Source: Caulobacterales bacterium (GTDB lineage: Bacteria; Pseudomonadota; Alphaproteobacteria; Caulobacterales; Caulobacteraceae). From it: DNA of 52,680 nucleotides. This document shows, one piece after another, positions 28,189 to 31,992 of this stretch (within the stretch, counting starts at the first letter, position 1; every line of letters begins with the position of its first letter). A program made the translations under genes and the position numbers. The stretch covers positions 1 through 52,680 of the forward strand of contig CANJID010000025.1 of the NCBI GenBank assembly GCA_947474395.1. Direction: 5' to 3'. The notes under the pieces are model-generated. The model searched no databases. It was not told the origin of the DNA and saw only the letters and a list, made by a program, of their open reading frames with translations.

Positions 28189-28212
28189 AGCTTAACCGAG
28201 CGGGGTTAGGCT
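28189..28212. promoter_or_regulatory. Inverted repeat overlapping the leader of the MazE-MazF-like gene
   Basis: Two 9-base arms (AGCTTAACC at 28189-28197, GGTTAGGCT at 28204-28212) pair with one G-T wobble around a 6-base loop. The repeat ends six bases before the ATG and covers the purine-rich ribosome site. It could be the operator bound by the protein's own DNA-binding part or an mRNA hairpin that limits translation (inference). Confidence 0.4.
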
Positions 28213-28218
28213 GGGATC

Positions 28219-28686
28219 ATGACCAGCCCTCGTACCCCCGTGAACAAGTTCCAGCGTTACCGCGACAACCAGCGCGGGCGCGGCCTGAAGATGCTTCGGC
28301 TCTGGGTCGCCAATCCCCAGTCGGCGGCGCCCGAGGGTGGCGGTGAGTTCCCCGGACCCAGGCGCGGCGACATCGTCATCGTGGCTCCAGCCACGAAGAA
28401 AGGGACGCCGGTTCCGGTGGTGATCATCCAGTCGGACGGACTGCCGCGGGACGGAAAGGTCATCGCCTGCCCGCTGGTGACTCCGGACGAGGCCGGAGAG
28501 ACGCTCTTCCGCCTGCCGGTCAAAGCCACCCCGTCGACGGGGCTGGGCCGCGACCGCCTGCTCGCCGCCGACAGGATCATGGCGCCGCCGCTGGAGCGCT
28601 GCGGAAAGGTGATCGGACGGCTGGAGGCGGCGGACCTCGCCGCCCTCAACCGGGTCCTGGCCGTGACCGTGGGCCTTGCCGACTAG
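28219..28686 (+). CDS. MazF/PemK-type toxin with N-terminal MazE-like (DUF3018) segment in one chain
   Basis: A 155-residue protein in two parts. Residues 9-32 (KFQRYRDNQRGRGLKMLRLW) resemble the N-terminal ribbon-helix-helix part of DUF3018 MazE-family antitoxins. Residues 46-155 are a MazF/PemK endoribonuclease fold: PRRGDIVIVA, a GTPVPVVIIQSD strand, ACPLV, and the tail DRIMAPPLERCGKVIGRL. The toxin-binding C-terminal half of a normal antitoxin (about 30-40 residues) is missing, so the toxin follows at once. The KPRP motif of active MazF reads TPVP, losing an Arg. It may be a self-regulating protein with a weakened nuclease, or a decayed toxin-antitoxin pair fused by deletion. No separate antitoxin gene is nearby. 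Confidence 0.8.
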   Translation: MTSPRTPVNKFQRYRDNQRGRGLKMLRLWVANPQSAAPEGGGEFPGPRRGDIVIVAPATKKGTPVPVVIIQSDGLPRDGKVIACPLVTPDEAGETLFRLPVKATPSTGLGRDRLLAADRIMAPPLERCGKVIGRLEAADLAALNRVLAVTVGLAD

Positions 28687-28705: not shown

Positions 28706-30421
28706 TCAGAGGTGCGGCAGCCACACGTCCAGCACGGCGCAGCGGCCCTCTTCCTTGACCGTCTTCACGGCGTCGGCCAGGGCGGCCTCGATCTCGTCCG
28801 GGTGCCTCACGGTGAAGGGCTTGGCCCCGCCGGCCGCCGCCGCGATGCCGGCGTAGTCGGCCGGCTCGGTGAAGGTCGTGCCGAGGTCGTTGGACTTCGA
28901 GCCATAGCCGTCAGGGTGGACGCCCAGCATCGAGAACTTGGGCGCGCGCCAGCCCCGGTTGTTCAGCACGATCTGCAGGAAGGGCGCCTTGCAGTGGCGG
29001 GCCATCCAGTGGACCGTCGCCGGCACCGAGAACATGAACGAGCCGTCGCCCGTGACGTTGATCACGAACTTGTCCGGCGCGGCCATCTTGGCGCCCACGG
29101 CGGCGCCGCCGTTCCAGCCCAGCGAGCCGGCGCCGGCGGTGAAGATCTGGCCGGGCTCGGTGGGAGCCAGGTGCTCATAGACCATGCGATCGTTGGTGAT
29201 CGCCTCGTCCATGATGATGGTGTCCTTGTCCACGTACTTGCGCAGGCACGCCATCAGGTACTCGACCGTGATGACATCGCCGGCCGGCTTGGCCTCGGCC
29301 TTGCGCAGGACCGCCTGCTGGGCGTCGTGGATGGCGGTGAAGTGGGCCGTGCGAGCCGCGACCGCGGCCGCGTCGAGCTTGGTGTTGGCGACGATGGCGT
29401 TGAGCTGCTTCAGGGCGGCGGTGGGGTGCACCTTCGCGCGCCGCTGCGCCGGCAGGTAGAACAGGGGCATGGTCTCCTTCAGGGGATCCACGTCCAGGTG
29501 CCAGATCTTGGTGCCTTCGGTCGGCTTGTTGAAGAGCTGGATCCACGGCACGTCGGAGTCCAGGACCACGATCAGGTCGGCCGCGGCGATGGCCTCGTTC
29601 TGCTTCTTGTCGTTCCACTGCAGCCCCAGGTGCATCGGGCTGTCGGCGGGGAAGTTCATGGCGCTCGGCACGGACTGGTAGACGCCGACGCCCAGGGTCT
29701 CGGCGAGCTTGACCAGTTCCGGCACGGCGTCCGGCTTGCGGCCGACGTACGAGGTGATGATCAGCGGGCGCTTGGCGGCCATCAGGTCGCGCACCAGCTC
29801 TTCGGCGGCGTCCTGCAGCATGGGGGTCGGCGGCAGGGGCTCCCACTGGTCCATGTGGAGCTTCAGCGGGGTGACTTCCTCCTCCATCACCTCGCGCGGG
29901 CCGGTCAGGTAGACGGGCCCCTGCGGATCGGTGTGGGCGAACTGCATCGCCCGGTGGGTGATCTGCTTGATGTTCACCCCGGTGCGGAACTCGTTGTCGT
30001 AGCGCATGTACTCGCGAACGATCCCGCGCTGGTCGAACACGTCCTGGATCCACTGGATGAATTCGTTGCGGCTGCCGGTCAGCTCGCCTTCCTGGGTGTA
30101 GGGCGAGGCGCCGGCGAAGATGAAGACCGGGGTGCGGCCCTTGTGGGCGTTGTGGATGGCGCCGCCGATGTTCTGGGTGCCGCACTCCACGTGCACGATC
30201 ACCGCCTGGGCCTTGCCGGTCACCTGGGCGTAGCCGTGGGCGCAGGACATGGCGACCATCTCGTGCGGAGAGGTGACCAGGGTCGGGATCTTGCGGCCGG
30301 CGACCTTGGCCTCGGCGATGCTTTCCAGGATGCCCGGGTGGTCCGACCCCAGGTTGGCGAAGATGTATTCAACTCCAGCCTCGGTGAGAGCTTCGAGGAG
30401 GGCGGTCGAGGCGGAGTACAT
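28706..30421 (-). CDS. Thiamine-diphosphate-dependent enzyme (acetolactate synthase / 2-oxoacid decarboxylase-like)
   Basis: A 571-residue cytosolic ThDP enzyme with the three-domain order of acetolactate synthase and benzoylformate decarboxylase. The cofactor-activating Glu is E54 (SPHEMVAMSCAHGYA). The Mg-ThDP motif is VTGDGSFMFS with NNRGW downstream (about 455-490). It is not a close match to any one biosynthetic enzyme; the substrate is unknown. It is downstream of an aldehyde dehydrogenase on the same strand (119 bases). A decarboxylase releasing an aldehyde that the dehydrogenase then oxidises would make a sensible pair, but that is inference. GAGGA lies upstream of the ATG. Confidence 0.85.
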   Translation of the reverse strand: MYSASTALLEALTEAGVEYIFANLGSDHPGILESIAEAKVAGRKIPTLVTSPHEMVAMSCAHGYAQVTGKAQAVIVHVECGTQNIGGAIHNAHKGRTPVFIFAGASPYTQEGELTGSRNEFIQWIQDVFDQRGIVREYMRYDNEFRTGVNIKQITHRAMQFAHTDPQGPVYLTGPREVMEEEVTPLKLHMDQWEPLPPTPMLQDAAEELVRDLMAAKRPLIITSYVGRKPDAVPELVKLAETLGVGVYQSVPSAMNFPADSPMHLGLQWNDKKQNEAIAAADLIVVLDSDVPWIQLFNKPTEGTKIWHLDVDPLKETMPLFYLPAQRRAKVHPTAALKQLNAIVANTKLDAAAVAARTAHFTAIHDAQQAVLRKAEAKPAGDVITVEYLMACLRKYVDKDTIIMDEAITNDRMVYEHLAPTEPGQIFTAGAGSLGWNGGAAVGAKMAAPDKFVINVTGDGSFMFSVPATVHWMARHCKAPFLQIVLNNRGWRAPKFSMLGVHPDGYGSKSNDLGTTFTEPADYAGIAAAAGGAKPFTVRHPDEIEAALADAVKTVKEEGRCAVLDVWLPHL

Positions 30422-30457
30422 GCGAAATCCTCAGGCGTCGTTGGAGCTCAAATGGAA

Positions 30458-30491
30458 ATCGGGCGGGGCGGCTCAGCCTGCCCCGCCCGAT
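30458..30491 (-). terminator. Strong hairpin between aldehyde dehydrogenase and ThDP enzyme genes
   Basis: A perfect 12-bp stem (30458-30469 with 30480-30491) with a 10-base loop. On the minus strand it is followed by TTTCCATTTG, so it may partly terminate the dehydrogenase transcript before the ThDP gene. Confidence 0.55.
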
Positions 30492-30501
30492 CTGGTCTTG
30501 C

Positions 30502-30523
30502 CCCTCCCCGTCGCCGGGGAGGG
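30502..30523. repeat. GC-rich palindrome in the same gap
   Basis: CCCTCCCC (30502-30509) pairs with GGGGAGGG (30516-30523) around a 6-base loop. It is 10 bases from the stronger hairpin. Similar pyrimidine/purine palindromes occur between the fad-type genes at 38442-38561. Confidence 0.45.
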
Positions 30524-30540
30524 ATGGCGTCAAGCCGGGA

Positions 30541-31992
30541 TCAGAACCCCGGCGGATAGTGTTGGTGGGTCTCGATGGTGATCCAGCGCAGGTCGGTGAA
30601 CTCGCCGATCGAGGCCTTGGAGCCGAAGCGGCCGTAACCGGAGGCGCCGACGCCGCCGAACGGGATCTGGCCCTCGTCCTGAACGGTCGGGCCGTTGATG
30701 TGGCAGATGCCGGTATTGAGCTTCTGCGCCATGCCCAGGCAGCGGTCGATGTTCTGGCCGAAGATGGCCGAGGACAGGCCGTACTCGGTGTCGTTGGCGA
30801 TGCGCAGGGCTTCCTCGTCGTCCTTCACCCGGATCACCGAAACCGACGGTCCGAAGGACTCCTCGGCGTAGATCTTCATGGTGGGGTTCACGTGGTCGAC
30901 GATGGTGGCGTCCATGATGGCGCCGTTGGCCTTGCCGCCGATCACCAGCTTGCCGCCCTTGGCGACCGCGTCGTCGACCAGCTCGACCACCCGGTTCATG
31001 GCCTCGACCGAGACCACGGCGCCCAGGGGGTTCTTGCCGGCGCGAGGATCGCCCGCGGTCAGGCCGGCGGCCTTTTCCTTGAACTTGGCGATGAACTGGT
31101 CGGCGATGGCGTCCTGCACGATGATCCGCTCGGCGGACATGCAGATCTGGCCCTGGTGCATGAAGGCCGAGAAGGCCGCGGCGCGGACCGCGTCGTCGAG
31201 GTTGGCGTCGTCCAGCACGATCAGCGGGGCCTTGCCGCCCAGCTCGAGCAGGCAGGGCTTCAGGTAGCGCCCGGCGGTCTCGGCGATGATGCGGCCGACC
31301 CGGGTGGAGCCGGTGAAGTTGATGCGCTTGACCGCCGGGTGGGCGATCAGGGCTTCCACGACGAGGTGGGCGTCCTGCGGGGCGTTAGTCACGACATTGA
31401 CCACGCCGGCGGGGAAGCCCGCTTCCTGCATGACCTGGCCGATCAGGCGGTGGGTGGCGGGGCAGGCTTCGGAAGCCTTCATCACCACGGTGTTGCCGCA
31501 GGCCAGCGCCATGGCGATGGAGCGGACGCCCAGGATGACCGGGGCGTTCCAGGGGGCGATGCCCAGGCACACGCCCACGGGGCGGCGCACGGCCATGGAG
31601 AAGTTGCCCGCCTTGTCCGACGGAATGATCTCGCCGGTGATCTGGGTGGTCATGGCCGCCGCTTCACGCAGCAGGCCGGCGGCGAAGGCCGCGTTGAAAT
31701 GGCCCCAGCCGACGGCCGCGCCGGTCTCGGCGGTGATGATCTCCGAGAACTTCGCCCCCATGGTCGCCATGATGTCGGCGGCCTTGTTCAGGAGGGCGCG
31801 CTTGGCGCTCGGGCCCGTGGCCGACCAGGCCGGGAAGGCCGCGGCCGCTGCGTCGCAGGCCGCCTTGGCGTCGGCGACGCCGGCCGCCGCCGCACGGGAC
31901 GCCACCAGGCCGGTGACGGGATCCTTGCGCTCAAACGTCGCGCCGCTCTGCGCGCCGACGTCACGATCGCCAATCAGAAGACCGATATCCAT
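30541..31992 (-). CDS. NAD(P)+-dependent aldehyde dehydrogenase (salicylaldehyde/vanillin dehydrogenase-like)
   Basis: A 483-residue aldehyde dehydrogenase. Oxyanion-hole Asn149 (IAPWNAPVI), general-base Glu250 (LLELGGKAP), nucleophile Cys284 (HQGQICMSAER), nucleotide-binding FTGSTRVGR and the C-terminal region are all in place. The overall pattern resembles the salicylaldehyde/vanillin/benzaldehyde branch rather than betaine or succinate-semialdehyde types (memory-based, moderate). GGAGG precedes the ATG by 8 bases. It is first in a minus-strand unit with the ThDP enzyme and diverges from an alpha/beta hydrolase gene over 207 bases that contain a large inverted repeat. Confidence 0.9.
   Translation of the reverse strand: MDIGLLIGDRDVGAQSGATFERKDPVTGLVASRAAAAGVADAKAACDAAAAAFPAWSATGPSAKRALLNKAADIMATMGAKFSEIITAETGAAVGWGHFNAAFAAGLLREAAAMTTQITGEIIPSDKAGNFSMAVRRPVGVCLGIAPWNAPVILGVRSIAMALACGNTVVMKASEACPATHRLIGQVMQEAGFPAGVVNVVTNAPQDAHLVVEALIAHPAVKRINFTGSTRVGRIIAETAGRYLKPCLLELGGKAPLIVLDDANLDDAVRAAAFSAFMHQGQICMSAERIIVQDAIADQFIAKFKEKAAGLTAGDPRAGKNPLGAVVSVEAMNRVVELVDDAVAKGGKLVIGGKANGAIMDATIVDHVNPTMKIYAEESFGPSVSVIRVKDDEEALRIANDTEYGLSSAIFGQNIDRCLGMAQKLNTGICHINGPTVQDEGQIPFGGVGASGYGRFGSKASIGEFTDLRWITIETHQHYPPGF

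Follow-up and report, generated by a model that had tools for sequence, protein, structure and literature searches.

What is a gene that joins the beginning of a MazE-like antitoxin to a MazF-like toxin in one chain: a repressor, a tamed ribonuclease, or what is left of a toxin-antitoxin operon? The question is raised by an open reading frame in contig CANJID010000025.1 of a Caulobacterales bacterium, of which we analysed a stretch of 52,680 nucleotides (the window). The frame starts with ATG and encodes one chain of 155 amino acids; instead of a two-gene operon with a neutralising antitoxin, there is one gene here (Table 1). The original prediction had read residues 9-32 as the start of a MazE antitoxin and residues 46-155 as a MazF/PemK fold, and both homologies are supported by profiles and by the relatives. 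PF02452 matched residues 48-149 with 43 bits, against a cut-off of 23.1 (E 5.7e-11). The match to PF11455 (residues 10-32) stayed below the cut-off of 22: the whole protein scored 13.5 bits (E 0.072) and its first 46 amino acids alone 16.4 bits (E 0.0089); NCBIfam and PADLOC gave no match for the gene. Ahead of the toxin part, in-frame ATG, GTG or TTG codons occur at residues 1, 8 and 25 only, so that the toxin domain should always carry some antitoxin-derived segment.

Table 1. The fused gene, its parts and the repeat in front of it, in window positions.
Feature	Position	Strand	Evidence or remark
Fused MazE-like/PemK-like gene	28219..28686	+	ORF; PF02452 and PF11455 matches; own antitoxin profile
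Antitoxin start, residues 1-36 (PF11455, NKFQRYR...GMKLLRVWVPDP clade)	28219..28326	+	profile, alignment
Junction/linker, residues 37-47, without clear likeness to either parent	28327..28359	+	
PemK/MazF fold (PF02452), residues 48-155	28360..28683	+	profile, AlphaFold2 model, Foldseek
T63-P64-V65 codons in the KPRP loop; V65 at the MazF catalytic Arg position	28405..28413	+	relatives' alignment
T88 codon, catalytic-Thr column kept	28480..28482	+	relatives' alignment
Imperfect inverted repeat AGCTTAACC-N6-GGTTAGGCT	28189..28212	.	not this antitoxin clade's operator

The N-terminal segment was compared with a profile of our own, made from 45 antitoxins of two-gene operons with the window protein left out; searched against the open frames at the fetched loci, it gave the window frame 30.2 bits (E 1.7e-7). 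Residues 1-35 shared 44, 50 and 59% identity with the separate gene that precedes the toxin gene at loci L084, L082 and L090, respectively, and the antitoxin of L005, which occupies the same contig place as L084, reached 50.7 bits with PF11455. In the family genomes G236 and G289, residues 2-34 and 4-35 matched apart from the toxin, and in Methylocystis iwaonis and Paenalcaligenes faecalis what matched was a plasmid gene annotated as a MazE-like antitoxin, with a PemK/MazF toxin gene behind it. Among the best 80 of 478 relatives, 29 loci matched the N-terminus in tblastn, with up to 59% identity, and none of these 29 matches was in the toxin's frame; the closest antitoxins within the same best 80 belonged to the NKFQRYR...GMKLLRVWVPDP clade. 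The similarity to DUF3018, for which the original prediction had proposed a check, is thus present in residues 1 to about 36, and the relatives carry this segment as a separate antitoxin gene.

The window protein keeps R15, G22, W29 and V30 of the antitoxin. The motif WVPD reads WVAN, with A31 and N32 in place of a proline found in 44 of the 45 relatives and an aspartate found in all 45. The similarity ends after the strand, and some 35 amino acids, the last half of the antitoxin with its two predicted helices, are missing; gone with them are F42, R48 and Q49 (45/45, 44/45 and 43/45 relatives). When the junction was inspected by eye in all three forward frames, the remainder of the antitoxin was not seen. 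The toxin-neutralising tail is therefore absent, as had been proposed, both later helices and the F42/R48/Q49 region being missing. The claim that the locus has no separate antitoxin gene also agrees with what was found in the genome, where no PF11455 match passed the cut-off; below it, the window gene aside, two weak matches appeared, one of 12.5 bits and one of 16.6 bits that is interrupted by a stop. Likewise, PF11455 did not reach its cut-off in any of 14 control genomes.

The predicted structures follow the same division. AlphaFold2 gave the toxin part a confident MazF fold, with block means of 86-97 from residue 51 on, and the 50 PDB rows listed by Foldseek were MazF-family chains. The model of the intact antitoxin of L083 (pLDDT 82) has a helix at 14-24, an extended stretch at 25-41 and helices at 42-53 and 57-73; a fold comparison found no solved structure matching it, and the strand-helix-helix order of the model suggests that the native antitoxin is a ribbon-helix-helix protein. 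The fusion retains the first helix and the extended strand only, the helices 42-53 and 57-73 of L083 having no counterpart. Residues 1-40 of the window protein were modelled with pLDDT 48-68 from an alignment without antitoxin rows in that part, and the check for a ribbon-helix-helix in residues 1-45, which the original prediction had called for, returned a single low-confidence helix (10-31) from this same alignment.

The relatives keep the two parts as two genes, with a 4-base overlap in 39 of the 57 antitoxin-toxin pairs measured. All 260 fetched loci were scanned with both profiles: 208 had a frame fitting the toxin profile, 197 of these also had a frame fitting the antitoxin profile, and the sole open frame to fit both was the window gene, present as four overlapping fetched copies. 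Whole-protein searches found no fusion elsewhere in 390 genomes of the family, 398 of the order, 385 of the class and 398 of the phylum, which are overlapping sets with a match in 35, 16, 41 and 29 genomes, the own genome included; only the window's own row spanned both parts without a stop, and where no locus had been fetched the alignment rows alone were the basis for judging a match. The plasmid search matched 112 records, of which 60 were listed, and the phage search with the window protein gave no match. One of the genome-contig searches gave none and the other gave the 478 relatives whose best 80 were kept, while the viral-contig searches yielded 33 loci in one and none in the other. The search for the same fusion that had been suggested thus brought up no second genome among those covered, and we found no PF11455/PemK fusion in the literature searched. 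At locus L203, antitoxin and toxin share a frame with one stop codon between them, one step from a full-length fusion.

The nearest known systems are intact PF11455 and PF02452 operons, which have the same gene order and in which both parts are homologous to those of the window protein; the identities of antitoxin start and toxin are 50 and 49% for L082 and 43 and 37% for L083 (both Candidatus Contendobacter), 44 and 46% for L084 (Caulobacteraceae) and 37 and 42% for L036 (Methylocystis iwaonis plasmid). They differ in having two genes, a full antitoxin, an intact KPRP loop and mostly a palindromic operator. PMC6354349 also lists, on a plasmid of the Pseudomonas syringae group, a DUF3018 gene next to one for a MazF-like toxin.

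We then considered whether the toxin part could still act as a ribonuclease. Its KPRP loop reads TPVP, as the original prediction had noted, and both the lysine and the arginine are present in 63 of 63 aligned relatives. This number is what remains of 73 loci after leaving out the window gene itself (L001), a duplicate of L005 (L081), one locus with E above 1e-8 (L030), three unconvincing relatives (L046, L048 and L079) and four frame-broken or split genes (L014, L040, L049 and L065). In a profile alignment the arginine of KPRP falls on an arginine of the B. cereus MazF chain 7bxy, and in the window protein this position is V65. Arg25 and Thr48 are described as key catalytic residues of the MazF toxins of B. 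subtilis and B. cereus, and mutation of R25 is reported to abolish the toxicity of the former and to severely reduce the activity of the latter (PMC7354611). The same source mentions one M. tuberculosis MazF with a lysine in place of that arginine; Val65 is neither. T88, in the catalytic-Thr column, is kept; of the 63 relatives, 53 have T there and nine have S. Further conserved positions of the toxin are changed (N107T, S113R, M116A and K119R).

Judged by a larger set of 142 relatives, two of the 13 columns that are at least 95% conserved (63 and 65) are lost in the window protein and 11 are kept, while any relative lost at most one; at 90% or above it lost three of 16, as did one relative, and at 85% or above it lost six of 21, the maximum in any of the 142 being four. 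Lysine and arginine are present in 142 of the 142 (138 distinct), a count that is biased and was not used as evidence, because 78 rows came from a scan pattern admitting only K/T and R/V. The replacement in the KPRP loop is thereby confirmed and a loss of activity is likely; with the conserved arginine changed to valine, the 'tamed ribonuclease' that had been offered is better described as probably a dead ribonuclease. A second case of arginine loss, and the one other relative seen with this residue replaced, is L014 (G393:C69), a decaying PemK toxin gene that reads KPTP and has an in-frame TAG six codons later.

On balance we favour the view that the gene is what remains of a toxin-antitoxin operon, fused and without catalytic activity; most likely it is an innocuous relic and not a new switch. 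A PF11455/PemK type II operon would have been inactivated in this lineage as two genes became one frame: a deletion would have taken roughly 35 codons from the end of the antitoxin gene, and its first 36 codons would have been joined through a short linker to the first codons of the toxin. The catalytic arginine (and the lysine) of the KPRP loop may have been lost before or after the fusion, a loss that would let the cell tolerate a MazF with no antitoxin to neutralise it. The product would be a MazF-like fold with a floppy or helical N-terminal tail; it would cut no RNA, bind no operator and have no selected function. If so, the locus illustrates clearly the death of a chromosomal toxin-antitoxin operon at a stage when the fold is still legible, the losses being the catalytic arginine, the antitoxin tail and the operator. 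A comparable case is yb_293189 of Ralstonia eutropha, described in PMC4826407 as a Phd-RelE fusion of a truncated antitoxin and a toxin in which both activities are thought to be lost; the two genes share this arrangement, but their families are unrelated.

Some findings speak against this view. The frame is open over 155 codons and has a coding-like GC3 of 0.872 (0.923-0.955 in three neighbours), and the keeping of 11 of the 13 most conserved columns, with both losses in the catalytic loop, is also what one would expect of a fold retained for another use. The terminal branch of the window protein, 1.23, is the longest of 44 sequences (next 1.00 and 0.98; median 0.33). Neutral simulation gave probabilities of 0.50, 0.085 and 0.0075 that no stop would arise at 0.2, 0.8 and 1.2 amino acid changes per site, and since the probability is so low at a branch of 1.23, most of the divergence probably arose under constraint and not in neutral decay. 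Either the decay is recent, then, or the fold is still kept, and much of the terminal branch may predate the fusion. FastTree placed the window protein beside L088, while in IQ-TREE its nearest tips were L082 and L083, which share its antitoxin clade; a tree that constrained it to this clade passed the AU test (0.46). Within the family, the neighbouring nuclease gene has no close relatives (best 38%; a match in 47 of 199 genomes, the own included), so that there is no empty or intact site with which to compare synteny.

These figures also bear on a selected role, in which the dead MazF fold was domesticated, for example as an antitoxin decoy, as a partner of an active MazF or as an RNA binder that does not cut. 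The frame is open, the core is kept, the two strongest losses are both in the catalytic loop, and the toxin domain is predicted to be well folded; moreover, an inactive toxin-antitoxin complex, MtvTA, is described as a regulator in PMC11826091. The likeness to MtvT lies in a toxin without toxicity, as the window protein probably is, whereas MtvT and MtvA are two proteins whose complex binds promoters, according to the same source. Against this, the comparison set includes one genome of the genus and so no orthologue to show selection. Nor was another fusion found among the fetched loci, the changes extend to conserved positions outside the loop, and the genome holds no PF11455 antitoxin over the cut-off. 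We therefore regard domestication as unlikely, and much the same can be said of its narrower form, a decoy or dominant-negative protein against incoming MazEF-type addiction modules or a non-cutting RNA binder. Were it so, gene fusion would have produced a MazF pseudo-enzyme here.

The original prediction had also raised the idea of a repressor with its own operator-binding head, in which the antitoxin strand, carried on MazF dimers, would read an operator. One or other of two 14-base palindromes lies upstream of many intact operons, and which one goes with the residue at one strand position: Q in GLRPVQIW antitoxins with GGTTACATGTAACC (Q-type), and R in GMKLLRVW antitoxins with GGTWGYGCGCWACC (R-type). 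Within 160 bases and with at most two mismatches, GGTTACATGTAACC was found at 99 of the 126 Q-type loci, GGTWGYGCGCWACC at none and neither at 27. For the 23 R-type loci, which are the ones from which the R-type consensus was read, GGTWGYGCGCWACC was found at 17, GGTTACATGTAACC at none and neither at six; T-type loci had GGTTACATGTAACC in two of three. Related loci are not independent, and with distinct stretches only, GGTTACATGTAACC was present in 93/120 (Q-type) and 2/3 (T-type), and GGTWGYGCGCWACC in 16/22 (R-type). Random 160-base stretches of the window reached the limit in 0/1000 and 3/1000 cases, and a narrower test of 70 bases before the guessed start found the first palindrome at 20 of the 40 loci that do not belong to the R clade. 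This correspondence suggests that the antitoxin strand reads the core of the operator, a relation in PF11455 antitoxins that is simple and testable by itself.

In favour of a repressor, the window protein keeps the clade-typical R at the strand position (GLKMLRLW). Upstream of its gene neither class of operator is present, with 5-6 mismatches of 14, and the same test finds none at 33 of the 149 relatives with Q or R at this position. Elsewhere in the genome, the R-type operator occurs with at most one mismatch at 10 distinct places, nine on the forward strand, and the reversed control pattern at four. Eight of the 10, including all three exact copies, lie inside frames with coding-like GC3, gene status being judged here from open frames only; the other two, C18:693 and C26:32166, have one mismatch each and are in no frame with a clear coding bias, which speaks for a repressor.

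The repeat to which binding had been proposed does exist, with 9-bp arms, one mismatch and a 6-bp loop, ending 6 bases before the start codon, but it is not the operator of this clade, and its half-sites point the other way. Shuffling the 61-base gap gave an equally good or better repeat in 11 of 300 cases, which favours a repressor, and 77 of 500 stretches of 61 bases drawn at random from the window held one too, which does not. With both helices after the strand gone, WVPD changed to WVAN, the N-terminus lacking a confidently predicted fold, and the operator absent upstream and elsewhere in the genome mostly inside genes, we rejected the repressor and hold it to be very unlikely.

Returning to the dead remnant, we weighed against it an active, self-restrained ribonuclease, in which the N-terminal tail would lie in the RNA groove and check a weak enzyme in cis. 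The catalytic Thr column is kept, and a cis-inhibited fusion is known in EzeT of Escherichia coli, described in PMC4826407 as an antitoxin fused to a zeta-type kinase toxin, with an active kinase that the antitoxin domain neutralises. EzeT resembles the window protein in its order, antitoxin N-terminal and toxin C-terminal in one chain, but the window protein lacks the catalytic arginine, as judged from its alignment, and the C-terminal half of the antitoxin. Known MazE neutralises through its C-terminal part, according to PMC8593223, and the part retained here is not C-terminal. With a valine where all the aligned relatives have arginine as well, we find an active enzyme highly improbable. 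Hardly to be credited, too, is a sequencing or assembly artefact, in which a false deletion created the fusion: the draft genome has 103 contigs and the fusion is seen in one copy only, but the replaced lysine and arginine, the changed WVPD and the linker are unlike products of assembly error, and no antitoxin remnant was seen in the other frames at the junction.

Two minor observations concern the surroundings of the gene. The genome has a second PemK-type gene (L034, at G000:C7:13140-13454), and the frame that precedes it encodes what we take to be an AbrB-type MazE. Downstream of the fused gene, at 28706-31992, the neighbours resemble genes for an aldehyde dehydrogenase and a thiamine-diphosphate enzyme, which we presume may belong to an aromatic-acid pathway.
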